A DNA stretch of 25,857 bases, from positions 26,570-52,426 of the forward strand of contig MU646650.1 of NCBI GenBank assembly GCA_026770585.1, in the 5' to 3' direction. This DNA comes from Baffinella frigidus. Its lineage: Eukaryota; Cryptophyceae; Cryptomonadales; Baffinellaceae. Below, one piece after another: positions 710 through 25,857 of this stretch. The stretch's first letter is position 1. Each line of letters begins with the position of its first letter. Under the pieces are notes generated by a model that made no database searches, was not told the DNA's origin, and saw only the letters and a list, made by a program, of their open reading frames with translations. A program made the translations under genes and the position numbers.

Positions 710-766
710 CTGGTAGTCGTTCATGTACCGCACGCGGCAGATGATCTGCGCCCCCGTCTTTCGCAA
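710..766 (-). CDS. P2X exon 9 (RxTG...YxN motif), last exon seen
   Basis: Acceptor GTGGGCAG|TTGCGAAAG, donor TACCAG|GTCCAC, phase 0 both sides, 19 codons. Encodes LRKTGAQIICRVRYMNDYQ, the conserved P2X R-x-T-G-x-x-[IV] strand followed by YxN that leads towards TM2. A decoy copy of its acceptor and start lies just upstream at 862-901. Confidence 0.83.
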
Positions 767-1347
767 CTGCCCACAGCCCCCGCACCTCAGCGCAAAACAC
801 AGGCAAATCAGTATCACAGCCCCCGCCACTGAGCGCATAACCCCCGCCACTCAGTAAGCCCCTCCATCTTTCGCTACTGCCCACAACCCCCACAACTCAG
901 CGCACCCCCCCCGCAACTCAAGAAGCCACTTTTCCGCCACCGTGTCCGTAGGGACCCCCTCTACGTCCCTACGGATTGCCTACCGTAGGATCCTAGGTTT
1001 CATCGCTTATGGGTTATTCAAAATCCCGTCGAATTCCGTTGCGTGGGATGCAAGTGGTCTGGAGCCATCCGCTCAGAGGAGGTGGCGGTTCGCGACACGG
1101 GGGGTGGGGGGGGGGGAGAGCGGGAGAGCGAGCGAGCGCGCGAAAGAGTGACAAGAGTGAGAGCGAGCAAGGGAGAGGGAGACAGGGAGAGGGAGAGGGA
1201 GAGTGAGAGCGAGAGAATGTGTGTGTGTGTGTGTGTGAGAGAGAGAGCGCGAGAGCGCGAGAGAGAGCGAGAGAGAGCGAGAGAGAGAGAGATAAAGCGA
1301 AAGAGAGAGAGAAAGGGAGAGCGAGCGAGCGAGCGAGCGAGCGAGCG

Positions 1348-1385
<38 letters not shown>

Positions 1386-2642
1386 CAGCACCGTCGACCC
1401 CTCGCCTTTCTCGTTGGCCGAATGCCCGGACACAGGCTTGTCGAGATCCAACCTACCAACCACCCAACACGTCGACGTCAGCTCCACCAAGCCCCTGAAC
1501 CCTACAGCAATCAGGGCCGCCGGTAACGCCTTCCACTCACCCTCACGGAAAGACCAAATCGTCGATTCTCAAACCTCGGATTTACCTTGACAGACACCCC
1601 GATATGGGGTGTCTGATTCGTAAGTTAACACAATCTTGCTGCAAAATCAACTTTTGGGAAAAGGTCGAAAATCGATCTTTTGGTCCTTCCGTGAGGGCTG
1701 GTGGTTCTAGACGTGCCCGTGCACCAATGCAGATAAAGAGAGAAAAAGAGACAGAGGGAGGGAGGGAGAGAGAGGGGGAGAGAGAGAGAGAGAGAGTGTG
1801 TGTGTGTGAGAGAGAGCATCCCACGACACGCTGCGGGCGATGTCTGGACGGGTCTGAGAGGGCGGGAAGGGCACCCCACGTAGGACACAAGCTCAGCCAC
1901 GGTCATCCGCAGCCCGCGCTCCCACTCGAGGCTAGAAAGGGACCATTTTAAAACAGAGCTTCTTTTAAAAGTGCAGTGGGGGGGAAAATGCGTAGTAATT
2001 TTCATACAAATAGGGGCCTTTGGTCACGTGGCTCAAGTTATAACTTGAGCTACGTGACCAAGCGTGCCCGTGACTGGTACTAAATTTAACAACCCCACAT
2101 TTAAAATACCCCCTCTTCCAGCCTCGAGTGGGGTCTGAGAGGGCGGGAAGGGCACCCCGCGTAGGACACAAGCTCGGCCACGGTCATCCGCAGCCCGCGC
2201 TTCGGATCCACCTGACGCCCCAGCTTGATGTAAGTTTCGTTGTGTCGTATATACGTATAATTATGTCGTATATGAGTATGATACACACTTCCCGGCCTCT
2301 TGTTCGTGGCCTCATGTGCACCCGCCCCATCGGCCGTTTTTTTGTCGTGGCCGTATTCATAGGCTAATGTCCTGAAAATAGGGTAGTTAGGCCTACGGCA
2401 TTGCCTAGGACCTCCTACCGTAGGCCGAGGGGTCCTAGGACCAAAAAGTCTCGGCCTACGGTAGGAGGTCCTAGGCAATGCAGTAGGCCCAACTACCCCA
2501 TTTTCAGGCCGTTACCCTATTAAAGCAACCATGGTGCAGGTGAAACTGGGGAGTTGCAGCATGTCCCCCGAACAAGAGGTTGGACGCACTGGGGGGGAGA
2601 GAGAGCGAGAGAGAGAGAGAGAGAGAGAGCGGCAGAGAGAGA

Positions 2643-2696
<54 letters not shown>

Positions 2697-5600
2697 ACCG
2701 GCCCGAGACTCTACGTCGATGAGGAGCAACGTGTGCAGATGGTTTCGGGTTCAGGGTTGATGGATTGAGGGTTCAAGGATTCAGGGAGGGTTCAGGGGTT
2801 ACGGTTTAGGGTGCAGGGAGGGATTATGGAGGGTTCATGAAGGGCTGATGGAGGGTTTATGGAGCCGATGCTGGCAGGGGCAGGCGCTCGCCATCCAACG
2901 AAAGTGCAGTCTGGGGATACTACCCCGTGTAGGATGACAGGAGTGACTTTACACACTAGGCAATGCCGTATGCCTAACTACCCCATTTTCAGGCCGTTCG
3001 CCTATGAGTGTGTTGAAAGCTTTCAAAAGCGCGCACCTCCGAGAGGGTGTTGAGGCGGACGCGGCCCGTGCCGTCGTCGCGGTATGACACGATCGTCCCC
3101 TGCACCACGCATCGGTGTTCATAGGCCACCGTGGATCGTGCCGCAGCCTGAGGGGACGTGAGTGACGCTGACGGCGTGAGCTGGCAGGTCTCATCCGTGA
3201 CCGTCACACCCTACGCCCTGCGCCGACGCCCCCAACCCTCTCGTCGTACGGGGGGTCCTCCCCTATCAGCGACTGCGTTCATAGGGTAACGGCCTGAAAA
3301 TGGGGTAGTTAGGCACACGGCATTGCCTAGGACCTCCTACCGTAGGCCGAGGGATCCTAGGGCCGAAACGTCTCGGCCTACGGTAGGAGGTCCTAGGCAA
3401 TGCCGTAGGCCTAACTACCCTATTTTCAGGCCGTTACCCTATTAGTGTGTGCGTCAGGCGGGGGGTATGCATGGGTGTGCGTCAGGCGTCAGTCGTGAGG
3501 CGTCGGGGGGGAGCATGCCGCAGGGAGGTGAGACAGGGGGGGGGGGTTGCCACAGGGCTGTGCCACAACCAGCCCCCCCTCGTGAGAGGGGACGAACAAG
3601 AGGGGAGCATGCACCCTTTGCAAGAGGGGAGCATGCATCCTTTGCAAGAGGGGAGCATGCATCCTTTGCAAGAGGGGAGCATGCATCCTTTGTAAGAGGG
3701 GAGCATGCATCCTTTGTTCAACACCCAAAAGCAGAGCCAGACCCCATGTGGAAAGTCTTGAAATTCAAAAAACTTCGGCAATCAATTTTACTACACAGAA
3801 CGATCTTGAGGGTTTGGGGTTGAGGGTTTGGGGTTTGGGGTTGAGGGTTGAGGGTTTAGGGTTTATGGTTCAGCGTTTAGGGCTCAGCGTTTAGGGTGTA
3901 TGGTTCAGAGTTGAGGGTTTAGAGTTCAGGGTTCAGGGTCCAGGGTTCAGCGTGTAGGGTTTACCTCGGCCTTCTTGGACTGTGCGCGGAAGGACTCCGA
4001 TCGTGTCTTGCTAAAAAATATCGGCGCCCCCCCCTCGTGCGTCACAATCACCTGCCAGGAGCAGAGAAGTCAAGACGGCGTTGTTTCGGAATCTTCTAGC
4101 TTGAGAGGAGAGAAGTGAGACGCTGAGTGATGTTTTGCTCACTCATCAATCGGCGTCTCACTTCAAAATCATCATTCAGCGTCTCAAAAATCGTAGAAAT
4201 CATCACTCGGCGTCTCACAAATCGTCAAAATTATCACCCAGCGTCTCAAAAATCGTGGAAATCATCACTCAGCGTCTCAAAATCATCGAAATTATCACTC
4301 AGCGTCTCAAAAATCGTCGAAATTATCACTCAGCGTCTCACAAATCATCACGCAGCGTCTCACTTTCCACTCGTGCGTTCCAATCACCAGCACTCATCAA
4401 CCGGCGTCTCACTTCTCTCCTCTCTAGCTACAAGATTCCGAACAAACGCCGTCTGACTTCTTTGCTCCTGGTAGATCCCGGCAAGACGCAGGAGAGGGCG
4501 AGTGAGCGAGAGAGAGAGTGAGCGAGAGAGGGAGCGAGAGAGGGAGCGAGAGAGAGAGCGAGCGAGCGAGCGAGCGAGAAAGAGCGCGCGCGTGTTTTCT
4601 TCTTCAGAAAAGTGCTGTGTAAATGTCACGAAGTCGCGCCAGGTCCAGGGGCCAGATAGAGATAGACGGAGAGAGGGAGCGAGCGAGAGAGAGAGAGAGC
4701 GAAGCAATCAAGACCGGGTACAGCCACGGCGCACAGTCAAAACCCGGTACATTCCCGACCCGGCGTCTCGCCACACGCCGGAAAGTGCCGGCACGTCGCT
4801 TCTACGCAAGACGAGGGTCGGGGATTCAGGGGAGAGGTTTGACGATCGATGCGGGGAGGCAGGAGGGCGAACGGTGCGTGGTTAGTACCACCAACCCTCA
4901 CGAAGGGGACCAAATCGTCGATTTTGAATCTCAGTTTCACCCGGGCAGCCAGGCGAATTCGCCTGTGGTGGAGCCATTTCCCATAGGAATTGCGAAAATG
5001 AAAATCATCGATTAGGTCCCACCGCGAGGGTTGGTGGTAAGGTGATCACTTTTCACAAGGCTGAAATGGCCTGTTGACAGGGACTTTACGAGGTTATCAA
5101 AGAAGAAGAAAAAAGGAGGAGGAGAGCGCACCTGCATGTCCTCGACGCCCACAGGATAGAACTCCTCGAGCTTGGTGGTCGAGAAGGGGGACTTGCGGTT
5201 GCACACGTCCGCGTCCGCGTCACACTGGTCAAACCAACGCACTGGTCAAACCAACCGCCCATCCCGTTCAGCCACCACGCCTAGCGACACAGGGATACAC
5301 GGGTGCGCTACCGCCCGCCACCCACAGCGCACGCATCTTGCCACGTCATCACTTCACGTGCGTGAAGAGTCCTTTCATGCGTGTTCATAGGGTAACGGCC
5401 TGAAAATGGGGTAGTTAGGCCTACGGCATTGCCTAGGACCTCCTACCGTAGGCCACACTTTTTGGTTCTAGGATCCCTCGGCCTACGGTAGGAGGTCCTA
5501 GGTAATGCCGTATGCCTAACTACCCCATTTTCAGGCCGTTAGCCTATGAGTGTGCTGAATCGTGCTGAATCGGTGCGTCTTGTCGCTCATGCCGCTGCTG

Positions 5601-8887: not shown

Positions 8888-9397
8888 ATGAGCGATCCCA
8901 TGGCCAGCCCAGAGCCGGAGGAGAAGATGGACATCGACGCTGACGCAAAGACAGTAACTGTCTCCCTGCTGGGCGACAAAGACTACCCGTCAATCGGCGA
9001 CGCGCTGCGAGCGGCACCCTCGGACTCGTCCACTGTCTTCCGCATCATCGTTGCGGGGGGGCTGTACGAGGAGGGGCTCCTCGAGCTGAAAAGCAACGTG
9101 CACATCATCGCGGCTCCGGACGCAGCCCCCACGTCTGATAACCCCGTGATCATCGCGGCGTGCGGCGACCACCCCTCCATCTGCTCGCGCGTGACCGGGG
9201 CGGTGCTGCGCGATATCAGGATCGAGCACCCGGGGCCCTTCGGCTCCATGGCGTCCGTGGTGATCGAGGCGGGCAACCTGCGGCTCGAGAACTGCATCCT
9301 GACCGGGTCCGTGACCATCGCTGTCCTCATGTGCGGCGCCGCCACCCCCGTCCTCCAGGGCTGCGAGGTGTACCTCTGCTGCGGCGACGGCATCAAG
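8888..9397 (+). CDS. Beta-helix gene exon 1 (N-terminus)
   Basis: ATG directly preceded by an in-frame TAG (8885-8887), which fixes the start unless the GTGCAG at 8878-8883 is an acceptor. 170 codons. After an acidic leader (residues 1-21) comes DYPSIGDALRAAP (32-44), the opening signature of pectate-lyase-fold proteins, then IIVAGGLYEEGL and LRDIRIEHPG rungs up to CCGDGIK. Donor ATCAAG|GTGGGG, phase 0. Confidence 0.92.
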
Positions 9398-10567
9398 GTG
9401 GGGCCCCCGCCACCCCCACCTCACCTCCACAACAGGCACTTCCATGGCATCTGGGCAGGGGCCGGCAGTGGATGACTGGGTTGGGCGGGTGCGGGGTGAT
9501 TGGTGCTGGGCGACCAGGACTGAGGATGCCCTGGATACGTCCTGGATGCGGGATAGATGATGTTGTATTTAACAGGCGGGTGGGTGGATGCTCGCAGGTC
9601 GCGGACAAGTCGTGTCCGACGGTGAGCAAGTGCACGATCCACGACAACGATGGCTTCGGCATCTTCTGCACGGGCTCCAGCGGCGGCCTGTTCGAGGAGA
9701 ACGAGATCTACGGCAACAGGTCACTCAGCGTCGGATGTCTTCGCCTTGACTCCCTGCTGAAGTTGCACCTGTTGACACCTGTTGACGTAGATGTCGTCCC
9801 CTGTGTTGACACATCAACACAAGTTGAGGGTGCCGGGCCCCGAATCTTGCCCGGAATTCCCCTTGATGTGATTCGCGAATGCGTTGGTGGAGTGGCATGT
9901 CGCCACAGCGCTCTTTGTATGGGGCGCACGTTGTGTGCCCCCTCGGAGCATGACATGAGCGACAGCAAGACGTCTTGGCCTGCCTCATGGACGGCAGGCG
10001 CCCCCTACAGTAGGACTGTGCCCGCCGGCAGGCTCGTGAACGCCCACGTGACCGGTCACGCGGACGCCGAAGCCAGACGGTCGGTCGTGACTGCCTTGCG
10101 TGTTCCTAGCACCCCAAGGTGCTATAGGGTACCCTACAGTAGGACTGTGCCCGCCGGCAGGCTCGTGAACGCCCACGTGACCGGTCACGCGGACGCCGAA
10201 GCCAGACGGTCGGTCGTGACTGCCTTGCGTGTTCCTAGCACCCCAAGGTGCTATAGGGTACCCTACAGTAGGACTGGGCCTGCCTCACGGACGGCAGGCG
10301 CCCCCCCTCGTGATTGATAGTTTCCTGATCCCGCAACAAGGTTGGACGGCACTCTGCAGCCTTGTGCTGGAGGTGTCTTCGGGGGCGGGGCGGGGCACGT
10401 CTCTTCCGCGGGGGGCGCAACTTTCAGGCGGGCCCGCAGACGACTACCAAGGAGGGCACCAAGTGCGGTGTAGTGCGAGAGGGTTGCTTCCGCCGAGCGC
10501 GAGGCTGTGAGGCGCAGCCCCGCAGGGCGCAGCAGCCCATCTGTGGAAGACATGTAGCGTGGAGCGC

Positions 10568-10608
<41 letters not shown>

Positions 10609-16007: not shown

Positions 16008-16074
<67 letters not shown>

Positions 16075-18783
16075 GACTGACGTGCGCGACGGTGGCCCGG
16101 CAGGCGTCGAGTGAGCTGGTGGCCAACATCGTCTCGCACGGGCCCCTCGGAGGCATCATCATCCGCGGCACCACCACCGCCACGGTGAGAGAGACGCGCA
16201 CGCTTCATTGCACGCCCCTTGTTTGTTTTGATTTCGTTTGAATTTGATTGGGGGAGGCGTCGAGCCTCGCACAGGGCGCCGCCGCGGGTGCTGTCAGTCA
16301 CAGGCTGTGCGCATCAGCGCGGAGTTCGCACACGTTGGCTCAGGCGCAACCTGTATACAACCTGTCGGCACGCTTACCAACATACCAGAATCTGTCCATA
16401 CAAAAAGGCGTAAGATAGCTTCATTGTATGCCTAAAATAGCATACCCACCCTTATCTTCCGCGTCGAAAGTCTAAGATAGCGGGACAGAATCTGCCGTTT
16501 TCAGAATTGAAATCTGTCGGCTCACCTCGTCGCCTGTTCACCTCGATCAATCGGGCCGCTGGGTGCCTCGGGCAGAGGAACAGCATGCATCAGTGCGTGC
16601 GGGACAGCATGCATCAGTGTGTGCGGGACATGCATCAGGTGGTTCTCCGGCTGACGGCGCGTGCTTGCTGGCTGGGTCGGTGTGAGGCTCGACGGCTGTC
16701 GGGTGTCTGCCTGGCGCAGTGACGCGCACTCTGTCGGGGCTGCCCCGCCTGGCTCCCCCCACCAACCCCCACACCTTGGGCAAACCGAAAAGGTCAAAAA
16801 CACCAAACCCCCTTGGAGGCCGTCGGAATCCGACGGCCCTCAAGGGGAGTTTTGGAGCCATTTTTCCCGATTTGCCCAGACTGTGAGGGTTGGTGGCCGG
16901 CTGACGGCTGACGGCCGACGTGTGGGGTGTCTGCCTGGGTCTGTGGACTGACAGCGCTGGTGGGGTTAATGCTGACGGGGTCGGCGGGAGGCAGGTGCGC
17001 GGCAACACCATCTGCCACAACGAGGGGGCGAACATCGCGGTGCTCGACTCGTCGAACCCCATCTGCGACGGCAACGTCCTCACCAACTCCGCGGGCCGCG
17101 GCCTCGTTATCATGGACAAGGTCCGCCCTATCCCCACACACCTGCGGAGGGTAGATGTGGTTAACGTCGACGTTAACCACGTGGTTAACGTCGACGTTAA
17201 CCACATCTCGACCACAACCACATCTACCCTCCGACGGAGGGTAGATGTGGTTAACGTCGTTAACTACATCTACCCTCCGACGTAGCGACTTTCCGTTGAG
17301 ATAGCCCTAGGAATAACTCAACGTACGTTTTTTTAGTTCGCCCTAGAATAACCCTACGGTGCTCAAGTTAGCCCTAGGAATAACCCTGCGTGCCTACGGA
17401 TTAGCTAGCGTACCTGTGACGGAAACGTCCTCACCACCTCCGCCGGAGGTGTCATCCTCATCATGGACCAGGTCTGGTCCTACTCTAATCCCGCCGAGTA
17501 GTCATGTAAAATACTCGGGGACTGGTCAATTGCGGCTAGGTTTCGCGAAAATGCCAGACATTCCCATCGTAGCGTCCGCCAACTCTGACAAGCGTGTCTT
17601 CTCGTGCGCAACTTTCCAGCTTACCCCCCCCCCCCCACCTTGCAGGCGAAGGGCACATACCGGTTCAACATGATCCGGAACTCGGAGCTAGCAGGGGTCT
17701 ACGTCGGCCGCCAGTCGGACCCTGACATGATTGCCAACTGCGTCTGCGATGGTGCCCCCCCCTCCCCTCCCCTTCCCCCCCGTCCCCCCCCTCCCCGTTC
17801 GCGCCCTCCTCTCGCCCTCGCACCCCCCCCCTCCCGCGAGACGAAGAAGGCGCGGCCGCTGGTGGGGGGCGGGACAGGAAAGATGTGGGAGTGCCTTGCC
17901 CGGTTGGGGCACGGGGTGCGGCAGGCTCGGGACGATGCAGTCGTGACCCCATACCCACAACAGGCAAGTCGGCGGGGATCCTTTTCGAGGACGACGCGAC
18001 GGGACGGTACACCCTAAACCCCAAACCTGCAACCCTACACCCTAAACCCCAAACCTGAAACCCTAAACCCTAAACCCCAAACCTGAAACCTTCAACCCTA
18101 AACCCTAAACCCTAACCCCTAAACCCTAAACCCCAAACCCTAAACCCTAAACCCTACACCCTTAACCTGAAAACCTAAACCCTACACCCTAAACCCTAAA
18201 CCCCAAACCCTGAACCCTACACCCTACACCCTAACCCCTAAACCCTACACCCTACACCCTAAACCCTAAACCTTACCCCTAAACCCTCAACCCTTCACCC
18301 CTACACCAGGTTCACGCACAACATCGTGTGCGCGAACCAGAACGAGGGCGTCGCCGTGCACGGCCGCGCACACCCGACCCTCGAGTGCAACGTCGTCATG
18401 CAGGTCCGCACTCCTCCTCGATCATACCTTTTTTGTTCCTACCCCTGAACCTGCAACTCGCGAGCCTTCTCCGTGCCCCCCCCCCGCCTGGCGCGCGCAT
18501 CTTCTCCTCGGCCCACTCTGCTAGCACCTGCCGAACAAGCGTGGGGTTAGGTTACGTCCGGTACGCTCATACGCCCTACCGTAGGGCTCTAGGACCTGCC
18601 TGGGGCTTCCACGGGCGATTACTCGCCTGTTGGTCACTTGAGGGAGAGAGGACGTATGCGAGCCTACCTGTATAATCACACTACCATCCCCTTGGTATCT
18701 CGAGCCGCGCGCCAGGCAGCAGCTTAGCCATGCAGGGGGGGGAGACACCTACACCCTCAACCCTCAACCCTCAACCACCAACC

Positions 18784-18829
<46 letters not shown>

Positions 18830-19162
18830 ACCCCGCACCTCACCAGGGGGGGCACGGAGGGATCTGGCTGGACGAGAACGCAGGCGGGACGTTCCGCGGC
18901 AACGTCGTCGAGGACAGCGGCACGAACGCCTACCGGTCCGCCCCCTGCACCCCGCCCCGTCAAAACCTGTATCCACAACGTGCGCTCAGTCCCCCGCCGT
19001 TGCGCGCTGCCAGCTGCCGCGGGTCTCTGAGAGTGACGCCGCTGCACGTCGGGAGGAGCGCGCTCGCTCCCCCCCGGGTCGTGGGGGCACCGCGGTAGGG
19101 TGCGGGTGGTGTGGCGCGTGAGGGGGGGTGCGACTCTCCCACTTCTCTCTCTCGCCCGCGCG

Positions 19163-19195
<33 letters not shown>

Positions 19196-22100
19196 TGTCT
19201 CGCTCTCTCCCTCACACTCACACACTGTCTCGCGCTCTCTCACACACACAGTGCTTCCGGCGCGGCGTTACGCATGGAGCGCACCCGCGGCCCTGCCCGT
19301 GCTGCATCCTAGCACAATCCACAGACACAGGACGCAGCCCTCACTCACACCAAACGCAGAGCGCTGACGCGAAGATGGCGGCGGGCAGGTGCGGGACGAC
19401 GAGCGCCAACGAGTGGAGGCTCGCCGAGCGCAACGCCAACACCGCCCCCGCCGCCCTCTCCGAGGTGCGTCCCACGCCCCAGAAACAGAGAGAGCCCCCC
19501 ACCGCCGAGAGTGGGGGGGTTGGGGATCAGGGCCGAGAGAGAGTGGGGGGGGGTCGGGGATATCCGTCCCACTCATGACAGCATGAGGTGAGAGGTTCGT
19601 GGGGAAGCGCAGCTAGGAGGGATTCCCAGCTGACTTGGAGGAGGGGGGGGGGGCGTCGTCCCTGGTGTCGCGTGCCAGCTTTCTTCTCTGCTGCCTCCTT
19701 CTCATGCAGTGCCGGGTGTATGGTCTAGGGGCGTAGCGTTCAGCGTTCAGCGTTCAGCGTGCAGCGTTCAGCGTTCAGCGTTCAGCGAAGCTAGCCCCGT
19801 TGGTGAAGTGGGACGGCGCGCGCTGATCGAGAGAGTGTGGTGTGACGGGGGGAGGGTAGCGCTGACCCGCAGTGTGTCTTGTCCCACTCCGGGAACAAAC
19901 GGGTAGCGCTGACCCGCAGCATGTCTCTTGCCCCACTCCGCTAACAAGACATGCTGCGGGTCAGCGCTAGGCGGCGTGGGGCGCCGCGCGCTGCTCGGGC
20001 AGAATCGAGTCTTTTCGAGGACGCGATCAGTTGAACCGCGTCGTTTGGCGGACGCGAGAGGACGTGGCCACTCAGGCCCTGGCAGTGATACACGGTAGTA
20101 TGATGCTATCTCGTGAGTGGCGAGGCGGTCAAAATTGACCGCCAGGAGGTCCTAGGCAGGTCCCTAGGGCCCTACGGTAGGGCGTATGGGCCTACTCGCC
20201 ACTTACGGGATCGGACGTGAACTAACGCAACGCTTGTTCGGCAGGTGCTGGCGGAGTGGGCCGAGGAGAAGATGCGCGCCCCAGGCGGGAACCGAAAGGT
20301 GATCCTCGTGCAGAACCCCGACACCTCTTCAGAACAAGGCGGCGTCGCGATGGCCACCCAGTGCTCTGAGCTACTTGGTCCGCCCCCGAAACCCGAAACC
20401 CGAAACACTAAATACTCAACACTCAACACTTAACACTAAACCCTAAACGCCAAACTCTAAACCCTAAACCCTAAACCCTAAACCCTAAACCCTAAACTCT
20501 AAACTCTCACCCCTAAACCCCAAATCCTCAACCCTAAGCCAACCCCGAGCGCACACACATGCGTGCATGTTGGTCGCTTGCTTCCTACACCCTACACCCT
20601 ACACCCTACATCCTACACCCTACACCCTACACCCTACACCCTGGTGTCACAGACACTTGGCGCAACGCGGCCTGACGCGAGGCGCCCACAACCTGTGTGT
20701 CTCGCTCACAACCTGTGTGTCGCAGGGCTGGACCCGTCGCGGTCCTGCATGCTGGTCGCCCGCTTCCTCGGCGACGCCGGCCAGTTCCAGGTCCTGCCCG
20801 CACCTCCCACCAGGACCCATCCTCCCAGCCTTGCAGGAAACGTTGTGGTTAGTCAACGCGGGGTACCTAGCAGCGACGCTCGTTCGCAGCCTGCGCACAC
20901 TCCGTGTGGGCCGGGCCCTCTCTTGCCCCACCGTCATTCTAGCTCTGTCTGACTCGGGGTTGGCTGATCGTTTTCACATCAAAAGTTGACAGATTTGCAC
21001 CCGCACCCCGGGGAATTGACTTCCGGTCTCGCCAAATTGGCGAGACCGAACCGTGTGGAGGAAGAGCTAGTAATTGGGTAGAGCCTTTCCGGAAAAACTT
21101 TGTCGTGCTCGATTTTTCGAAATGCCGACGTGGCATCTTTGCCACTTCCGACGCCGTTTTGGCGCTCTCTCTTCACCTCCGCCACCCACCCACCAACCCT
21201 CACAGTCTGGGCAACTCGGGGGAAATGGCCCCCAAAATCCCCTTGAAGGCCGTCGGATTCCGACGGCCTGAATGGGGGTTTGGTGTTTTTGACTTTTTCG
21301 GTTTGTCCCAGTTGTGAGGGTTGGTGGACAGGACGTTGGGGTGATCCGCGTTCCGACTTGAGTGTTTCGCTAACCCTGCAGGCGCCTGGTGTGGTTTTAG
21401 GGTTCGGGGTCAACCCTAACCCCCTAAATCCTAAACCCTAAACCCTAAATCCCAAACCCTGAACCCTAAACCCTAAACCCTAAGCCCTAAACCATAAACC
21501 CTAAACCCTAAACTCAAAATCCTCAACCCTAAACCACAAACCATAAACCATAAACCATAAACCATAAACCATAAACCATAAACCCCAAACCCCAAACCCC
21601 AAACCCCAAACCCCAAACCCAAACCCCCAACCCCCAATCTGCAACCCAGGACGCGGAAGAGTTGATCCAGCTGGCGAAGACGTTCGTCGGAGACTCGGGG
21701 CCCTTCAAGGCCGAGATGGGCTCCGTCCTCCGCGTCCAGCAGCGTGGCGATATGTAACACTCCCCCCACACACACACACCCCACAGCCCCAAACCTGCTG
21801 GTTGTGAGCCTCGGTCGGACAGGTGATGAGCCTCAATGGTTGACTAATGAAGGTGAGTTCTGGCCTCTCTCCTCCCAAGCGGGGTCACACTGGTCGAAAG
21901 GTACGAGGCTGGGCAACTGGCGGTTGGCAACCAACCGGGCAAAAGGTTGCAACCTTTGACCCAGGCTCGTAACCTTAGACCCCCCCACAAACCCCTACAC
22001 GCAACAGATGCTTCCAGCCCTGCACGCAATCCCATTCTTTGCACGCCACACCTCACGCCCCAGAACCCAGCGCTCGGTCGCCAGACCCTGCACCCTGAAT

Positions 22101-25100
22101 CGGTCACCAGATCTCAACCTGTAGCCTACCGCAGGTCGCTGCACTGCGCGGAGCTGCTCAACAAGTGGGCCGCGGCCTCCCCCGAGTACAACACTGGTCA
22201 CCCCCCCCCGCCCCACACATTCTCCTTCTTCCCGACACCCACTCTTCTCCAGACCCACATTCATAGGCTAACGTCCTGAAAACGGGGTTGTTAGGCATAC
22301 GGCATTGCCTAGGACCTCCTACCGTAGGCCGAGGGATCCCAGGACCAAAAAGTCTCGGCTTACGGTAGGAGGTCCTAGGCAATGCCGTAGGCCTAAGTAC
22401 CACATTTTCAAGCCGTTACCCTATGAATGTGCTTCAGCGCCCCGCCCGGTCTTAGGGCCCTACGGTAGGGCGTAAGAGCCTACTGGTCACTCAAGGGATC
22501 GCGTTTTGAGGGGGCGGGCGGGGCGCTGCAGCACATGTCAACGTGTCACATGTCAACACTGGTCACCCCCCCCCGCCCCACACATTCTCCTTCTGCCCGA
22601 CACCCACTCTTCTCCAGACCCACATGTGCTGGTTGCGTTTCAGTTTGTTTCGTGTGAGATGGCTCCAGTCTCGTGTCAGAGTTGCAGTTCCTTGTCTGTG
22701 GTCCCGCCCGCCCGGAGGTGACGCCGCCAGCGCGAGACAGCGGGTCGAGTCAACTTATGATCGAGTCAACTTAAGATCGGGTGCTGGAATGTCAAAGCAA
22801 CGGCCATTGAGTTGACTTTTGATTGACCCCCTTCAAATAGGGTTGAGCGGTGTAGGGGTGAGAGCAGCAGCGTGGGGGAAAGGGACACCGGACAGGCCTG
22901 GGTGAAGGAGCTTCACCCTCATAGGCTAACGGCCTGAAAATGGGGTAGTAAGGCATACGGCATTGCCTAGGACCTCCTACCGCAGGCTGAGGGATCCCAG
23001 GACCAAAAAGTCTCGGCCTACGGTAGGAGGTCCTAGACAATGCCGTAGGCCTAACTACCCCATTTTCAGGACGTTACTCTATTAACCCACCCGCCCGGAA
23101 ACGACACTGCGAGACATCTTAATAGGGCAACGTCCTGAAAACCGGGTAGTTGGGCCTACGGTATTGCCTAAGGTAGGCCGTAGGGCCTCTAGGACCTACG
23201 TTTCCTAGGACTCCCCGTAGGCCCCTACGGCCTACCGTAGGCAATACCGTAGGCTCAACTACCCGGCTTCCAGGACGTTGCCCTATGAATCTCGCAGCGC
23301 GCCCTCCCCGCGCGCCCCTGCTCCGCCGCGCTCCGCTGCCGGCTGGCGGCGGCTGCCGTCAGTCGCCGTGGTGGGCCACGCTGGCTGGGGCGCGGGAGGC
23401 TGGTACCTGGTGCTCGTGCGCGGCCGGCACACACCTGATGCCCCCTGGTGCGCGGCGCAACCGGCCAACAGACCCGGCTGACGCTGCTGGATGCACCCTC
23501 CGGGCCGACCTGATGCCGTATGGTGTGCGGCCCGGATGACGCTGCTTCCTGCACGTGACAGACCTGCTGCCGCGTGGTGTCGTGTGTGCACAGACCTAAT
23601 CTCCATAGAAGTATTAATTGATTGCTTTTAGGCAACGAAAATTACTACACGGTTTGCTCATAAAAGTAGTAGTAAAGCATTTGTGTAGTAAATTTCGTTG
23701 CGCCAAAAGCAATCAATTAATACTTTTGTGGAGATGAGACCTGATGATGTGTGTGCCTCCTGGTACGCGGCTGACGCCTGTGTCCCCTGCTGGCAGACCT
23801 GACGCGTGATGTGTGGTAGACGTGATGGCCCTGGTACCTGCACGTGGCAGCCCTGATGACTCTTTGTCTGTGGAGCCACAGACAGCCACAGACAAAGAAC
23901 TGCAACTCTCACGCGAAACTGGAGCCATCTCACACGAAACAACCTGAAACGCAACGTGGTGCGCGGCCTGCACACCTGATGACGCCTGTGCATGCACACT
24001 GCTGACAGACTTGATGACTCTGGTGAATCCCCTTGGCAGACCTGATGACCCAAGTGTCTCTTGGGGCGCCGCATGCCTACTGACGCCCTGTCTGTGGCCA
24101 CTGATGACGCCTTGTCTGTGGCAGACCTGCTGACGCGTGGTGTGGAGTGTGCACAGACCTGATGCCGTGTGTGCCTCCTGGGACGCGGCTGACGCCTGTG
24201 TCCCCTCCTGGCAGACCTGATGACGTCTGTGGAGCCAAAGAACTGGACCTCTCACACGAAACTGGAGCCATCTCACACGAAAAACAAAGTGAAACGCAAC
24301 GCGGTGCCCCTCCCGGCAGACCTGATGACGCGCGCGGCGGAGTACGCGCGCGAAGCGGCCGAGGTCTTCGCGTCGATGCAGCCCCAGGACGTCCAGACCC
24401 TCGAGTCCTTCGCCTTCTCCCTCTACTGGGTCGTCCTCAACTTCGCGACGCTCTGCCGCCTCGGCGGCGGCGGACAGTGGACCGCGAACCAGGCGTGCGC
24501 CGTCGCGGCCGAGGCCCTGGCCGTCGCCCACTCCATGGTCCTCCCCCACGCCTCTCCGCCAAAATTTTGTGTTTTTTTTTTCTGGGGGTTGGATTGCGGG
24601 GGTTACTTCGCGTACGAGTGTGCTGGGGAGCGCCCTGCCCTGCCTGCCTCGAACAGTGTTGATAGGAGATTGATGCAGTGTGCAGTGGTTAACAGATGAC
24701 TTGGGCGGTGCCCGAGAGCCCCAGCGGGATGCGCACACGCCGAACCCAGACATGTAACCTTACAGTAAAGTTGCTGTACACTAGAGTGGAAGGCCTAGTG
24801 TTGCTATGCACTTGGGTGGAAGGTCACCAGGTGACTCCGCACACCCCGTGGCACCACACCGCGGCGTTTCAACAGCAGACTGACAGTGTGGAGTAATAGA
24901 TGATGTATGTAACACATGATGTTCTCTGGGGCAGGTGACGCCGCACACGCCGCCGCACCGGACGGCGGAGCTCTACTTCGTTGAGGGCGTCCTCTACTAC
25001 TGCAAGGCCGAGGCCACCGCCGCCGGCTACATCCAGGCACCCTACTCCCTACTCCCTACACCTTACACCCTACACCTTACACCCTACACCTTACACCCCA

Positions 25101-25742
25101 CACCCCACACCCCACACCCCACACCCCACACCCCACACCCCGCACCCCGCACCCCACACCCTTGACTCTACACCCTTCACCTTCAATCCTAAACCTAAAC
25201 CTACACATAAACATAAACATAAACATAAACATGAACTTGAACCTAAACCTCAACCCAAAAGTAAACTTCAACCTACGCCTCCTCAACCGACACCTGAACC
25301 TTGCTCCCTGCACCAGGTGGAGGGCGAGGTGGTCGACGCGGCGGTCAAGGTGCTTCTCGAGAGCGCCCTCAAGGAGATGAAGGTCCGCAACCCTACACCC
25401 TGAACCCTGAACCCTCACCCCTGAATCCTGAACCCTGAACACTGAACACTGAACACTACGAGCGCCCTCAAGGAGATGAAGGTCCGCAACCCGAACCCCT
25501 AATCCCTGAACCCTCACCCCTGAACCCTGCACCCTGAACCCTGAACCCTGAACCCTGAACCCTAAACCCCAAACTCCAAACTCCAAACTCCAAACCCCAA
25601 ACCCCACACCTCAAACCTCAAACCTCAAACCCCACACCCCACACCCCAAACCCCAAACCCCGGATGCAGGTTGCGTACAAGCAATGGTGCGAAGCGTACG
25701 GCGAGAAGCACCTCCAGACCGTCAAGGCCATCACCATGATCG
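8888..25742 (+). CDS. Large right-handed beta-helix protein with C-terminal helical (TPR-like) region, 22 exons, 3' end beyond the window
   Basis: Exons: 8888-9397, 9598-9719, 10717-10870, 12217-12462, 13474-13578, 14541-14632, 15385-15505, 16104-16184, 16995-17120, 17646-17751, 17964-18006, 18310-18403, 18847-18935, 19389-19464, 20245-20377, 20726-20790, 21650-21753, 22135-22196, 24320-24537, 24935-25036, 25317-25382, 25670-25742. They join in phase to about 929 residues with no stop. Residues about 30-629 are repeated rungs of the form GIxVxxxAxPxLxxNxIxxN, the beta-helix pattern of SHCBP1, FBXO10/11 and NosD-like proteins. Residues about 630-929 are helical and include LVARFLGDAGQFQDAEELIQ and AYGEKHLQTVKAI, which look TPR/kinesin-light-chain-like. 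No signal peptide or membrane helix, so probably intracellular. No F-box seen. Function unknown; scaffold or binding role is an inference. Confidence 0.88.
9598..9719 (+). CDS. Beta-helix gene exon 2
   Basis: Acceptor CTCGCAG|GTCGCG, phase 0 in; donor GGCAACAG|GTCACT, phase 2 out. Encodes VADKSCPTVSKCTIHDNDG and GLFEENEIYGN, two classic rungs. Confidence 0.92.
10003..10276. repeat. 129-bp tandem repeat, two full units plus a start
   Basis: CCCTACAGTAGGACTG starts at 10003, 10132 and 10261; the two full units are virtually identical. The array is bracketed by GCCTGCCTCA(T/C)GGACGGCAGGC hairpins at 9979 and 10279. In intron 2. Confidence 0.9.
10571..10607. repeat. (GT)n microsatellite
   Basis: Eighteen GT units in intron 2, 110 bp before exon 3. 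Confidence 0.95.
10717..10870 (+). CDS. Beta-helix gene exon 3
   Basis: Acceptor GGAGCAG|CAACGC (an AG three bases earlier also keeps phase), phase 2 in; donor ATCCAG|GTCCAA, phase 0 out. The AG|C junction makes Ser in IYGNSNAGVAARG. Continues FKKNNVYD and LLEENDIYQNQKSGIQ. Confidence 0.9.
10885..11330. repeat. CAGCCTAAACCCCAGCC array with assembly gap
   Basis: Intron 3 begins, right after its donor, with hundreds of bases of (CCCAGCCTAAAC)n-like repeat. An undetermined stretch of 55 N lies at 11056-11110, so the array length is not known. Confidence 0.9.
11056..11110. other. Assembly gap (55 N)
   Basis: Run of N inside the CAGCC array of intron 3; repeat collapse is the likely reason. Confidence 1.
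11497..11830. mobile_element. Foldback element with nested 86-bp duplication and inner hairpin
   Basis: Arms 11497-11549 and 11778-11830 are reverse complements over about 53 bp (GGTATTCATAGGAACAACCG... and ...GGTTGTTCCTGCGGATACC). An 86-bp direct duplication (11480-11565, 11566-11651) covers the left arm. A central inverted repeat (11661-11752, CACAAAA...TTTTGTG) holds CTAGTCCGCAGTGTGGAGTG. In intron 3. Confidence 0.8.
12217..12462 (+). CDS. Beta-helix gene exon 4
   Basis: Acceptor GCGCGCAG|GTGGGC, donor AACCAG|GTCCGC, phase 0 both sides, 82 codons. Contains GGIVVHDRATGTFLQNEI and GGGIVLHENCRGIFEKN, textbook rungs. Confidence 0.92.
12624..12789. mobile_element. Foldback element family A, copy 5
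   Basis: Full-length copy in intron 4 of the beta-helix gene; flanks AACA/AACT match at three of four positions. Confidence 0.87.
12970..13473 (+). repeat. 149-bp tandem array ending in the exon 5 acceptor
   Basis: CAGGTGATCGGG occurs at 13090, 13239, 13388 and 13471; the last is the true acceptor plus first nine bases of exon 5. Units also carry a CTCTCTCTCTCTGGCTC pyrimidine tract. A diverged first unit lies at 12970-13089; the last is shortened to 83 bp. Every unit thus offers a pyrimidine tract, a CAG and the exon start. Confidence 0.9.
13474..13578 (+). CDS. Beta-helix gene exon 5 (GC donor)
   Basis: Acceptor CGTGGCAG|GTGATCGGG, phase 0. Encodes VIGNTHAGIGLKGVSNALL and YISDGSGYGVWVQ. 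The donor is GTCCAG|GCAACC. A GT six bases earlier (TGG|GTCCAG) would delete two residues and break the 15-residue rung spacing GVWVQEHAVSTLQNN, so a GC-AG intron is preferred. The acceptor and first nine exon bases are repeated in the array upstream. Confidence 0.85.
13632..13764. mobile_element. Foldback element with GGGCAAATCG and AAGTCAA arms
   Basis: Outer pair CTGGAGGCAACCCCGGGGCA / TGCCCAGTAGTTGCCCCCAG, inner pair TAAGTCAATCTCCCACAA / TTGTATGGGAGTTGACTTA. In intron 5, 50 bp past the exon 5 GC donor. Confidence 0.75.
13811..13908. repeat. Hairpin with AGTCAACT/AGTTGAC ends
   Basis: Central stem AGAATAGCCCG TTTT CGGGCTATTCT flanked by GTCAACTTTTG-type strings. Similar GTCAACTT-containing hairpins occur at 7345, 20975 and 22741. 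Confidence 0.6.
14141..14311. mobile_element. Diverged foldback related to family A
   Basis: Same inner core (CCTCGGCCTACGGTAGGAG-type) but different ends (CGTAGGGAAACTCCCGGAAA... / ...GGGGGGTTTACG). In intron 5. Confidence 0.75.
14385..14513. repeat. Polypurine GA/GGGA tract upstream of exon 6
   Basis: Long (GA)n/(GGGA)n run ending 28 bp before exon 6; complementary in composition to the CT tract 14672-14808. Confidence 0.9.
14541..14632 (+). CDS. Beta-helix gene exon 6
   Basis: Acceptor TCTGGCAG|GAGCATG, phase 0; donor CATGAG|GTGCAG, phase 2. Encodes EHAVSTLQNNVIERN and AGVVVTDSANPTM. It is bracketed by a purine GA tract upstream and a pyrimidine CT tract downstream. Confidence 0.88.
14672..14808. 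repeat. Polypyrimidine CT/CCCT tract downstream of exon 6
   Basis: (CTCT)n/(CCCT)n run starting 40 bp past exon 6. Confidence 0.9.
14867..15045. repeat. GTGGTCT heptamer array grading into GCGGTGT/GCGGTAT
   Basis: About sixteen GTGGTCT units in a row, then diverged heptamers. In intron 6. It drives a false repetitive CGLWSVV frame. Confidence 0.9.
15184..15219 (+). pseudogene. Exon 7 decoy copy 1
   Basis: CTGCACAG|CAACACCATCGCGCGGGATG resembles the exon 7 acceptor and start, then diverges. No in-phase continuation of the rung. Confidence 0.7.
15283..15349 (+). pseudogene. Exon 7 decoy copy 2 (stop)
   Basis: GTGTGGCAG|CAACACC followed by about 65 bases nearly identical to exon 7 (GGGAAGCACGCAGGGCT...), ending GGGGCGCTAA where exon 7 has GGGGCGCTTC: an in-frame TAA replaces Phe. 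Cannot encode the rest of the rung. Confidence 0.8.
15385..15505 (+). CDS. Beta-helix gene exon 7 (third of three copies)
   Basis: Acceptor CCGCACAG|CAACAAC, phase 2 in; donor GAGCAG|GTGCCC, phase 0 out. Encodes SNNIVRDGKHAGLLI then FRQNTLAHNAHG. Chosen over the two upstream copies (15184 and 15283) because only this one continues into a full rung and has a donor in phase. Confidence 0.88.
15512..15741. repeat. Telomere-like CCCTAAACCC/CCCTGAACCC array, intron 7
   Basis: Starts within ten bases of the exon 7 donor and runs about 230 bp as degenerate CCCTRAA/CCCTACA heptamers, C-rich on the sense strand. Confidence 0.9.
15989..16073. repeat. (GA)n microsatellite
   Basis: Nearly pure GA run, 30 bp upstream of exon 8. 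Confidence 0.95.
16104..16184 (+). CDS. Beta-helix gene exon 8
   Basis: Acceptor GCCCGGCAG|GCGTCG, donor GCCACG|GTGAGA, phase 0 both sides, 27 codons (ASSELVANIVSHGPLGGIII). Preceded 30 bp upstream by a pure (GA)n tract. Confidence 0.88.
16581..16640. repeat. 24-bp tandem repeat CAGCATGCATCAGTG
   Basis: Two and a half units of CAGCATGCATCAGTGYGTGCGGGA in intron 8. Confidence 0.8.
16759..16896. mobile_element. CCACCAACCC-type MITE, copy 4
   Basis: 138 bp, CCACCAACCCCCACA... / ...CTGTGAGGGTTGGTGG ends, CC on both sides. Internal palindrome GGCCGTCGGAATCCGACGGCC. Same subfamily as copy 5 at 21190 but in the opposite orientation. In intron 8. Confidence 0.85.
16995..17120 (+). CDS. Beta-helix gene exon 9
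   Basis: Acceptor GGGAGGCAG|GTGCGC, donor GACAAG|GTCCGC, phase 0 both sides, 42 codons. Encodes VRGNTICHNEGANIAVLD and GNVLTNSAGRGLVIMDK. The second half is duplicated at 17409-17471. Confidence 0.9.
17144..17279. repeat. Stacked perfect palindromes in intron 9
   Basis: The 24-bp perfect palindrome GTGGTTAACG-TCGA-CGTTAACCAC occurs twice back to back (17157-17180, 17181-17204), enclosed by CGGAGGGTAGATG / CATCTACCCTCCG arms; a second smaller hairpin with the same arms follows (17235-17279). Confidence 0.9.
17409..17471 (+). pseudogene. Copy of the second half of exon 9
   Basis: TAG|CGTACC then TGTGACGGAAACGTCCTCAC... to ATCATGGACCAG|GTCTGG: 21 codons (CDGNVLTTSAGGVILIMDQ) with AG before and GT after, phase 0 both sides. 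It could be spliced in without a frameshift, but it lacks about four residues of a full rung. Duplicate or optional exon. Confidence 0.65.
17646..17751 (+). CDS. Beta-helix gene exon 10
   Basis: Acceptor CCTTGCAG|GCGAAG, phase 0 in; donor GCGATG|GTGCCC, phase 1 out. Encodes AKGTYRFNMIRNSELAGVYV and MIANCVCD. Joining exon 9 directly gives the 17-residue rung GLVIMDKAKGTYRFNMI, matching GIVVHDRATGTFLQNEI in length. Confidence 0.9.
17964..18006 (+). CDS. Beta-helix gene exon 11 (43 nt)
   Basis: Micro-exon, phase 1 in (CAACAG|GCAAG), phase 2 out (GGACG|GTACACC). Encodes GKSAGILFEDDATG. The following intron is made entirely of CCCTAAA-like repeats, including its donor and acceptor. Confidence 0.87.
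18007..18309. repeat. Telomere-like array forming the whole of intron 11
   Basis: The intron from GTACACCCTAAACC to CCCTACACCAG consists entirely of CCCTAAA/CCCTACA/CCCCAAA repeats, splice sites included. Confidence 0.9.
18310..18403 (+). CDS. Beta-helix gene exon 12
   Basis: Acceptor CTACACCAG|GTTCAC, phase 2 in; donor ATGCAG|GTCCGC, phase 0 out. Encodes FTHNIVCANQNEGVAVHG and PTLECNVVMQ. Confidence 0.9.
18486..18604 (-). repeat. Inverted copy of exon 15 start and its upstream intron
   Basis: The minus strand reads CGCTTGTTCGGCAG then GTGCTAGCAGAGTGGGCCGA..., the exon 15 acceptor and about 45 exon bases with few changes, preceded by a GGACGTAACxTAAC stretch and GAGCCCTACGGTAGGGCGTA as at 20157-20245. 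Lies in intron 12, about 1.7 kb from the original. Confidence 0.85.
18743..18840. repeat. CCCTCAACCCTCAACC array, intron 12
   Basis: Pure heptamer (CAACCCT)n ending 6 bp before exon 13's acceptor; sense strand C-rich. Confidence 0.92.
18847..18935 (+). CDS. Beta-helix gene exon 13 (last clear rungs)
   Basis: Acceptor CTCACCAG|GGGGGG, phase 0 in; donor TACCG|GTCCGC, phase 2 out. Encodes GGIWLDENAGGTFRGNVVED, the last clear beta-helix rung. Confidence 0.88.
19140..19252. repeat. (CT)n/(CA)n microsatellites, intron 13
   Basis: Alternating CT and CA runs in three blocks. Confidence 0.9.
19389..19464 (+). CDS. Beta-helix gene exon 14 (start of helical part)
   Basis: Acceptor GCGGGCAG|GTGCGG, phase 2 in; donor TCCGAG|GTGCGT, phase 0 out. 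Encodes CGTTSANEWRLAERNANT then APAALSE. The rung pattern ends here. Confidence 0.78.
19735..19789. repeat. CAGCGTT heptamer array
   Basis: Seven units of CAGCGTT (one CAGCGTG) in intron 14. Confidence 0.9.
19904..19969. repeat. Perfect 23-bp inverted repeat
   Basis: TAGCGCTGACCCGCAGCATG... (19904-19926) pairs exactly with 19947-19969. A direct partial copy of the left arm lies at 19857-19880. Intron 14. Confidence 0.88.
20157..20213 (+). repeat. Dispersed repeat GGGCCCTACGGTAGGGCGTA
   Basis: TCCCTAGGGCCCTACGGTAG... followed by GCCTACTCGCCACTTACGGG. Related copies at 22451-22503 (plus) and, inverted, in 18570-18640. Copy here lies 30 bp before the exon 15 acceptor. Confidence 0.75.
20245..20377 (+). 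CDS. Beta-helix gene exon 15
   Basis: Acceptor GTTCGGCAG|GTGCTG, phase 0 in; donor CTACTTG|GTCCGC, phase 1 out. Encodes VLAEWAEEKMRAPGGNRK and VAMATQCSELL. Its acceptor and first ~45 bases are present in inverted orientation at 18486-18541. Confidence 0.8.
20395..20642. repeat. Telomere-like arrays, intron 15
   Basis: Two blocks, 20395-20545 (CCCTAAA/ACACTCA) and 20584-20642 (CCTACAC), sense strand C-rich, starting about 18 bp after the exon 15 donor. Confidence 0.88.
20726..20790 (+). CDS. Beta-helix gene exon 16
   Basis: Acceptor GTGTCGCAG|GGCTGG, phase 1 in; donor TTCCAG|GTCCTG, phase 0 out. Encodes LDPSRSCMLVARFLGDAGQF, a TPR/PPR-like helix. The string CACAACCTGTGTGTC before the acceptor is doubled. 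Confidence 0.8.
20975..21060. repeat. GTTGAC-containing hairpin
   Basis: AAAAGTTGACA ... GGAATTGACTTCC with the stem CGGTCTCGCCAA/TTGGCGAGACCG. Intron 16; related in motif to 13811-13908. Confidence 0.55.
21190..21327. mobile_element. CCACCAACCC-type MITE, copy 5
   Basis: 138 bp, AC on both sides, internal palindrome GGCCGTCGGATTCCGACGGCC. Reverse-orientation sister of copy 4. In intron 16. Confidence 0.85.
21395..21640. repeat. Telomere-like array, intron 16
   Basis: CCCTAAACCC, then pure CCATAAA and CCCCAAA heptamer blocks, ending 15 bp before exon 17's acceptor. Sense strand C-rich. Confidence 0.9.
21650..21753 (+). CDS. Beta-helix gene exon 17
   Basis: Acceptor CAACCCAG|GACGCG, phase 0 in; donor GATAT|GTAACA, phase 2 out. 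Encodes DAEELIQLAKTFVGD and AEMGSVLRVQQRGD. If not spliced, the frame ends with ATG TAA at this point; splicing is preferred because exon 18 continues in phase. Confidence 0.78.
22135..22196 (+). CDS. Beta-helix gene exon 18
   Basis: Acceptor TACCGCAG|GTCGCTG, phase 2 in; donor AACACTG|GTCACC, phase 1 out. Encodes SLHCAELLNKWAAASPEYNT. The last eight bases, the donor and 62 bases of intron are duplicated at 22554-22625. Confidence 0.8.
22189..22260 (+). repeat. 72-bp duplication, copy at exon 18 donor
   Basis: CAACACTG|GTCACCCCCC...AGACCCACAT includes the last eight bases of exon 18 and its donor. Copy 2 is at 22554-22625 with one or two substitutions. A family A element is inserted at the end of this copy. 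Confidence 0.9.
22261..22426. mobile_element. Foldback element family A, copy 6
   Basis: TCATAGG...CCTATGA. Copy 2 of the 72-bp duplication (CCCACATGTGCT) serves as an unoccupied site and fixes the element ends at these bases, with AT on both sides. Confidence 0.88.
22451..22503 (+). repeat. Dispersed repeat GGGCCCTACGGTAGGGCGTA, further copy
   Basis: CTTAGGGCCCTACGGTAGGG... then GCCTACTGGTCACTCAAGGG, related to 20157-20213. Intron 18. Confidence 0.72.
22554..22625 (+). repeat. 72-bp duplication, downstream copy with decoy donor
   Basis: Repeats the exon 18 end, donor and intron start. A transcript spliced here instead would gain intron sequence. Confidence 0.9.
22632..22701 (-). repeat. 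Inverted copy of the 23886-23955 segment
   Basis: GTTGCGTTTCAGTTTGTTTC... is the reverse complement of 23886-23955, which itself recurs directly at 24228-24303. Gives a long intramolecular pairing inside intron 18. Confidence 0.8.
22741..22832. repeat. GTCAACTT-containing inverted repeat
   Basis: Two direct GATCGAGTCAACTTA(T/A)GATC strings and, at the far end, GAGTTGACTTTTGATTGACC. Intron 18. Confidence 0.55.
22919..23084. mobile_element. Foldback element family A, copy 7
   Basis: Full length, exact ACCC duplication (22915-22918 and 23085-23088). Intron 18. Confidence 0.88.
23120..23288. mobile_element. Foldback element family A, copy 8 (diverged)
   Basis: Exact ATCT duplication (23116-23119 and 23289-23292). 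The arms differ in sequence from the other copies but still pair with each other, so both arms changed together or it is a separate subfamily. Confidence 0.87.
23440..24319 (+). repeat. Degenerate array of exon 19 acceptor-start copies
   Basis: GGCAGACCTGATGACG-type strings recur about a dozen times (for example near 23506, 23555, 23793, 23971, 24035, 24121, 24155, 24211), the last being the true exon 19 acceptor. Larger units (GTGTGCCTCCTGG...CCTGGCAGACCTGA) repeat at about 23750 and 24165. Confidence 0.85.
23599..23735. mobile_element. AT-rich MITE inside the exon 19 decoy array
   Basis: ATCTCCATAGAAGTATTAAT... / ...ATTAATACTTTTGTGGAGAT arms of about 52 bp, inner CAACGAAAATTACTACAC pair shared with 376-500. 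AGACCT occurs on both sides, so it landed in one decoy unit. Confidence 0.85.
24320..24537 (+). CDS. Beta-helix gene exon 19
   Basis: Acceptor TCCCGGCAG|ACCTGATG, phase 1 in; donor TCCATG|GTCCTC, phase 0 out; 72 codons with very high GC3. Encodes DLMTRAAEYAREAAEVF, ESFAFSLYWVVLNFATLC and ACAVAAEALAVAHSM, clearly alpha-helical. The acceptor and first bases are repeated about a dozen times upstream. Confidence 0.85.
24825..24873 (+). pseudogene. Decoy copy of exon 20 acceptor and start
   Basis: CACCAG|GTGACTCCGCACACCCCG resembles GCAG|GTGACGCCGCACACGCCG of exon 20 and continues HHTA for HRTA, then diverges to a TGA. In intron 19. Confidence 0.7.
24935..25036 (+). CDS. Beta-helix gene exon 20 (GC donor)
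   Basis: Acceptor TGGGGCAG|GTGACG, donor ATCCAG|GCACCC, phase 0 both sides. Encodes VTPHTPPHRTAELYFVEGV and YCKAEATAAGYIQ. No GT donor is available nearby, so this is the second GC-AG intron. A partial copy of acceptor and exon start lies at 24825-24873. Confidence 0.82.
25038..25250. repeat. Telomere-like and AAACAT arrays, intron 20
   Basis: CCCTACTC/CCTACAC, pure CACACCC heptamers, then (AAACAT)n; sense strand C-rich. Starts two bases after the GC donor. Confidence 0.88.
25317..25382 (+). CDS. Beta-helix gene exon 21
   Basis: Acceptor TGCACCAG|GTGGAG, donor ATGAAG|GTCCGC, phase 0 both sides, 22 codons (VEGEVVDAAVKVLLES and ALKEMK). The exon end and donor are duplicated at 25460-25491. 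Confidence 0.82.
25383..25660. repeat. Telomere-like array forming intron 21
   Basis: CCCTGAA, CCCCAAA, CTCCAAA and CCTCAAA heptamers fill the intron except for the duplicated exon 21 end. Confidence 0.9.
25460..25491 (+). pseudogene. Copy of exon 21 end and donor
   Basis: GAGCGCCCTCAAGGAGATGA AG|GTCCGCAACC is an exact copy of 25361-25392, inside intron 21. Confidence 0.92.
25670..25742 (+). CDS. Beta-helix gene exon 22, last exon seen
   Basis: Acceptor GGATGCAG|GTTGCG, phase 0 in; donor ATGATCG|GTACCC, phase 1 out. Encodes VAYKQWCEAYGEKHLQTVK, close to the second helix and loop of kinesin-light-chain-type TPRs. The gene continues past the right edge. Confidence 0.8.
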
Positions 25743-25754
25743 GTACCCCCCACC

Positions 25755-25857
25755 GCATAAACCCTAAACCTCAACCCTACACCCTCATCCACCAACCCCG
25801 CACACCCGCACACCCTCACTCACCCCGGACTGTCAAGGCCATCAAGCACCTCCAGAC
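25755..25857 (+). repeat. Repeat array and scrambled copy of exon 22 end at the window edge
   Basis: CCCTAAACCTCAACCC repeats followed by CTGTCAAGGCCATCA and AGCACCTCCAGAC (25830-25857). Both strings are from exon 22 but in swapped order, as at the junction of two tandem copies; the array continues beyond the window. Confidence 0.8.

Follow-up and report, generated by a model that had tools for sequence, protein, structure and literature searches.

Copies of exon edges in the introns of two Baffinella frigidus genes as probable by-products of frequent short-range DNA duplication

The introns of two genes in a stretch of Baffinella frigidus DNA carry copies of the edges of their exons. We consider it probable (about 0.8) that these copies are by-products of a frequent short-range duplication of DNA in cryptophyte introns, and that exon edges are not favoured by this process. 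The stretch analysed ('the window') is 25,857 nucleotides long. In the process we propose, segments ranging from tens of bases to a few hundred would be copied beside or near themselves, mostly in direct orientation and at least once inverted. If the duplicated stretch crossed an exon-intron junction, the copy would land inside the intron. The spliceosome would then keep the outer, ancestral site, so that the protein would remain unchanged while the intron would grow and the inner copy would decay.

The two genes encode a beta-helix protein and a P2X-like protein (see table; intron numbers without a gene name refer to the beta-helix gene). The 22 exons of the beta-helix model give 929 codons with zero stops, and the gene matches the Pfam families PF13229 and PF05048. 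The model was compared with P0001, the representative, and only the representative, of a three-member cluster: all of the 916 residues compared are identical (0 mismatches). P0001 would be derived from spliced RNA, since its longest contig measures 4515 nt while the gene spans 16.9 kb. The closest named homologues of the beta-helix protein (P0005 and P0006, 70% identity) are assigned by taxid to Cryptomonas curvata and C. paramaecium, so that the window most likely represents the nuclear genome of a cryptophyte alga. The P2X-like model is supported by tblastn of P0016/P0017, with an uncertain border between exons 2 and 3. PF00864 scores 22.5 bits on this gene, under the gathering score of 27, and 30.7 on the homologue P0017. 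An assembly gap (55 N at 11056-11110) lies in beta-helix intron 3. Among the 30 introns of both genes, the donors are GTCC in 10 cases and GTGC in 9; there are two GC donors. Where a downstream exon starts with G, T is the second base in 14 of 25 cases, and within exons G is followed by T in 15%.

An extended alignment of 20 edge cases gave 11 copies (score of at least 13) in which exon and intron sequence are both present and keep their original order. Two others include an exon part only (scores 17.0 and 17.5) and seven score below 13. The 11 copies are found in beta-helix introns 2, 4, 6, 9, 18 (both ends), 19 and 21 and in P2X introns 5, 8 and 9, and their intron parts are 3, 3, 4, 4, 10, 25, 27, 44, 58, 64 and 87 nt long. 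The exon-edge search was run unmasked; simple-repeat masking had hidden the intron 21 copy. Identity ranges from 71/72 (intron 18 donor) and 97% (P2X intron 8) down to approximately 79% (introns 9 and 19). The copies in introns 6 and 21 are near-tandem (spacers of 28 and 19), as are the units of the 149-bp array in intron 4 and of the 17-bp repeat in P2X intron 4; spacers are longer in the other 10 of the 12 copy pairs. In the intron 4 array, CAGGTGATCGGG occurs at 13090, 13239 and 13388 (the real acceptor is at 13471), and self-alignment extends the array 4 nt into the exon. In intron 18, CAGACCTGATGA, an exact copy of the exon 19 acceptor edge, occurs at 24037 and 24212, and another copy in the array lies at 23890-23985.

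These alignments bear out the central claim of the original prediction, that copies of exon edges are present inside introns of both genes. The details fared unevenly. Copies were said to match their own neighbouring exon except for the intron 12 copy, which was assigned to exon 15. This is mostly so, but a further weak copy at 20564-20586 matches the interior of an exon and reaches no edge. The intron 12 copy does include 45 nt of exon 15, but in inverted orientation: its source (20123-20289) comprises the end of intron 14 together with these 45 nt and is 1.7 kb away. The edge copy listed for intron 4 is present, with only nine exon bases in it. For the P2X gene, copies had been placed in introns 4, 7 and 8. 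Copies exist in this gene; introns 7 and 8 of that list are probably introns 8 and 9 of our model, while its intron 4 may be either our intron 4 or our intron 5. The copy after exon 22, that at 20564-20586 and that in intron 2 (10345-10413, gapped) are weak, because at scores of 15-17 the search of exons against introns is close to its reversed-sequence control.

Features of the window, with positions counted from its first nucleotide
Feature	Position	Strand	Remarks
P2X-like gene, exons 1-10	710..8206	-	open at left end of window; homology only
Copy of P2X exon 10 acceptor region (44 nt intron, 19 nt exon), intron 9	858..920	-	period 110
Copy of P2X exon 8 end (46 nt) and 25 nt of intron 8	1850..1920	-	97% identical; period 281
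210-bp element with terminal inverted repeats, P2X intron 8	1921..2130		between two 71-bp copies of exon 8 edge
Copy of P2X exon 6 start (21 nt), P2X intron 5	4367..4391	-	acceptor AG lost
17-bp tandem duplication, P2X exon 5 acceptor (intron 4)	5223..5255	-	
Beta-helix gene, exons 1-22	8888..25742	+	open at right end of window; exon model and homology
149-bp tandem array, beta-helix intron 4	13076..13460	+	three copies: exon 5 acceptor and 9 exon bases
Copy of CAG and about 70 nt of exon 7, beta-helix intron 6	15280..15353	+	period 102
Copy of exon 9 end (58 nt) and donor (10 nt intron), beta-helix intron 9	17414..17482	+	period 351
Inverted 146-nt copy of 20123-20289, beta-helix intron 12	18483..18628	-	alignment
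Copy of exon 18 end (8 nt) and 64 nt of intron 18	22554..22625	+	71/72 identical; period 365
Diverged direct repeats with exon 19 acceptor-edge copies, beta-helix intron 18	23472..24319	+	alignment
Copy of CAG and 34 nt of exon 20, beta-helix intron 19	24828..24864	+	period 104
Copy of exon 21 end (22 nt) and 58 nt of intron 21	25460..25539	+	period 99
Weak copy of 25 nt of exon 22, after exon 22	25821..25844	+	stops 9 nt before donor
Fold-back family copy	2356-2522		
Fold-back family copy	3278-3444		
Fold-back family copy	5387-5549		
Fold-back family copy	6557-6720		
Fold-back family copy	12619-12790		
Fold-back family copy	14132-14307		diverged
Fold-back family copy	22256-22430		
Fold-back family copy	22914-23085		
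Fold-back family copy	23115-23289		

The copies exceed what chance would give, as had been claimed. For each of 61 edges, up to 40 nt of exon sequence was aligned locally with the edge's own intron. A copy with a score of at least 14 was found for 10 of the 61, compared with 0.07 expected from non-own introns, and one with a score of at least 20 for five, compared with 0.00. When all exons were compared with all introns on both strands, six matches reached a score of 20, against none in the reversed-sequence control; at a score of at least 15 the corresponding numbers were 17 and 14. That the copies are mostly local is supported by the distribution of direct pairs: 48 of 159 lie no more than 1.5 kb apart, compared with 18.4 expected under an even spread. 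The same search of the reversed-sequence control gave 31 direct pairs in total.

Local copying is not confined to exon edges. Intronic 40-mers were sampled at 20-nt steps, subject to a minimum complexity derived from the exon edges, and 211 of 766 have a copy in their own intron with a score of at least 14, which is more frequent than for the exon edges (10 of 61); with other introns the figure is 3.9%. Overlapping 30-mers (own-intron copy, score of at least 13) give rates of 4/123 (3.3%) deep in exons and 9/147 and 10/139 (6-7%) towards the edge. For 30-mers centred on the junction the rate is 36/172 (20.9%), and for intronic 30-mers, moving inward, it is 20/91, 38/218, 69/368, 133/725 and 247/823 (17-30%). 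Against a random other intron, the copy rate of 30-mers is 0-4.8%. Even with the complexity filters in place, the intronic rates may be inflated by repeats.

We also compared clusters of direct pairs (within 1.5 kb) with those obtained when the exon map was rotated. An exon copy is present on one side only in 7 of 17 clusters, compared with 8.06 ± 1.75 for rotated maps. In the unmasked sequence, at three complexity limits, 9/19, 9/18 and 9/18 clusters touch an exon, compared with 10.5, 9.7 and 9.3 under rotation. Counted as pairs, the exon-touching examples number 9 against 16.6 under rotation, and 16, 16 and 14 against 39.0, 30.8 and 23.5 when unmasked. These pair counts, which fall below rotation, speak against an edge preference, although intronic arrays may be their cause. 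Within this window, neither the 30-mer rates nor the rotation of the exon map revealed junctions to be copied more often than intron interiors.

A mechanism directed at splice borders, acting for instance through breaks at GC-rich borders or RNA-DNA hybrids, would prefer exon edges, and the original prediction included copying that favours such borders. We regard this as unlikely. All six of the exon-derived intronic matches scoring at least 20 do reach an exon edge, and four of the 11 copies that extend into intron sequence (those in introns 4, 6, 19 and P2X 5) end within 4 nt of the splice site: they carry only 3-4 intron bases and their similarity begins at the acceptor CAG or GCAG, while the other seven carry 10 to 87. 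These four copies also count against our own reading and somewhat lower its probability. However, the copy rate of junction-centred 30-mers falls inside the range of the intronic rates, rotated exon maps produce as many exon-touching clusters, and for local copies reaching the edge is to be expected. Copies that start at CAG or GCAG might be explained if intron flanks, being free of constraint, decay more quickly than the exon and acceptor, which are under constraint. In intron 4, the alignment of the array runs well past the 3-4 intron bases of its edge copy.

A comparison of exon edges with exon interiors cannot settle the matter of border preference, because exon sequence left in an intron by local duplication usually comes from a segment that spans the edge. 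Exon edges lying beside their own exon would be what a blind local process leaves behind. This is a matter of geometry and is in line with the 40-mer, 30-mer and rotation results. Copies within exons would alter the protein and should be purged, and copies internal to introns would escape the eye. There is therefore a trap in self-alignment: under local duplication, the exon sequence found in introns nearly always consists of exon edges and, for this reason, exon-edge copies do not in themselves point to a process directed at borders.

Such copies could also be generated by mobile elements whose insertion leaves long target-site duplications, and P2X intron 8 provides an example that looks like this. 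Here, the 210-bp inverted-repeat element is abutted by 71-bp direct repeats of the exon 8 edge (1850-1920 and 2131-2201) that are 97% identical and resemble a very long target-site duplication. Inverted-repeat ends with a score of at least 14 occur in just 1.5% of random intronic spacers. However, this is the only one of the 10 testable spacers to have such ends (there are 12 pairs, two of them near-tandem), and long target-site duplications were rejected as a general source since only this 1 of 10 testable pairs conforms. In intron 18, moreover, a fold-back element lies at the first copy and the second copy (22554-22625) represents the site without it. The duplication therefore probably preceded the insertion. 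Comparison of this empty site with the element at 22256-22430 suggests a 2-bp AT target duplication. As a general origin of the copies, mobile-element insertion is very improbable.

The introns contain several other repeats. The fold-back element belongs to a MITE-like family of approximately 165 bp with nine related copies (see table), most of which have ends like ATAGG...CCTAT. A further family of inverted repeats, whose ends resemble CCACCAACCCTCAC...GTGAGGGTTGGTGG, is represented at 6772-6940, 16762-16896 and 21193-21327 and near 1691 and 5023. Long telomere-like (CCCTAAA)n tracts are present in four introns (15514-15740, 18011-18294, 20385-20537 and 21412-21626).

It had also been proposed that the copies are retained by selection for splice choice, as alternative splice sites or cassette exons. 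Many do keep their splice signals: GT is retained in all four donor copies tested, AG is retained in the acceptor copies of introns 6 and 19 and P2X introns 4 and 9, and exact CAG-bearing copies are present in introns 4 and 18. One acceptor copy in intron 18 (24215, 105 nt upstream) would add its 105 nt in frame with no stop. This is the exception, since 15 copies were examined and splicing at any of the other 14 would introduce a stop or shift the frame. P0001 joins the beta-helix exons at the outer sites only and uses none of the beta-helix copies; AG has been lost in P2X intron 5 and the intron 12 copy is inverted. Retention by selection is thus hardly credible.

Repeated edge segments also occur in relatives, in three of five genomic-looking ORFs of the same genes that were examined. 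P0018 carries the start of P2X exon 5 twice (self-repeat score 108, compared with a maximum of 35 among 40 shuffles), in P0019 the end of P2X exon 8 is repeated (53 compared with 35), and P0024 includes a repeat around beta-helix exon 19 (49 compared with 36). No repeated edge segment was found in the other two ORFs, P0021 and P0022. A search for orthologous loci gave two pattern matches in viral_contigs, with no relative and no repeat match, and no repeat match in genome_contigs. Judged by eye from the ORF translation, P0019 seems to read through the position of P2X intron 7 (3036-2212). In P0021 (98% identity, covering half of the query), exon 19 (24320-24537) seems, again by eye, to be split by an additional intron after TANQ. 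The relatives thus seem to differ in their introns.

The opinion that the pattern fits no described class has to be given up, since tandem genomic duplication across an intron-exon junction has already been described. In the potato RdRp gene (PMC4974935), a segment running from the 3' part of one intron into the 5' part of the following exon has been duplicated in tandem together with its splice signals, and the gene has a further 83-bp tandem duplication within an intron. As in that example, exon and intron sequence are contiguous and directly oriented in the copies from 11 of the 20 edge cases described here. There are two differences with the potato case as described there (PMC4974935): the potato duplication created an additional spliced intron and inserted part of an exon, whereas the inner copies here remain within a longer intron, and duplication recurs here at about a dozen edges in two genes.

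Small tandem duplications are described as arising by end joining after fill-in at breaks (PMC8355091, which refers to Vaughn and Bennetzen 2014 on rice). They share with our copies the properties of being short, local and direct, but fill-in end joining alone, as presented there, would not give an inverted and distant copy such as that in intron 12. Direct repeats near intron splice sites have been reported broadly, and break repair or insertion has been proposed as their origin (Rogers and Bendich 2025, PMC11782384). Direct repeats around intron borders are common to both cases. The repeats of Rogers and Bendich pair the 5' with the 3' border of one intron, whereas in-register pairing right at the borders does not exceed that of permuted pairs here. 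Over our 30 introns, the in-register donor/acceptor repeat beyond AG/GT averages 3.43, compared with 3.46 for permuted pairs (P=0.63), and identity over 40 nt is 12.27 compared with 12.53 (P=0.74). We therefore rejected the creation of these introns by AGGT duplication (the Rogers model), as the in-register repeat is no higher than in permuted pairs.

Introner elements (PMC9860276, PMC7789003) have a counterpart in the inverted-repeat elements found in introns here. However, our edge copies are mostly local and do not form a dispersed family. Furthermore, an introner is a repeated element that makes up a whole intron and supplies its splice sites, and our assessment concerned the inverted-repeat ends of spacers between copies. 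Exon-edge copies such as those reported here are not described for cryptophytes in the titles or the starts of abstracts among the matches listed, which is a weak indication that they have not been reported.

Among the causes initially put forward (slippage or break repair, a route of intron growth, or selection), local duplication accompanied by intron growth is the likeliest, but plain slippage is not the whole cause because the intron 12 copy is inverted and comes from 1.7 kb away. Such a copy fits template switching or templated repair. The spread of identities, from 71/72 to approximately 79%, is as for continuing events of different age. The short-range duplication proposed here would most likely be neutral, occurring through break repair or template switching and enlarging the introns.

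If the rate in this window holds across cryptophyte genomes, this would be a simple and testable route of intron growth. It would also supply many natural pairs of near-identical donors, for which the sequence of the site alone cannot decide the choice of splice site. More tentatively, and with an evidence base of one window, two genes and one assembly, cryptophyte nuclear introns might grow, and new introns might arise, mainly by very frequent short-range duplication; we hold this to be possible but rather doubtful. If it is true, these genomes would offer a series of near-identical splice sites of graded age from which the rule that favours the outer site could be read.
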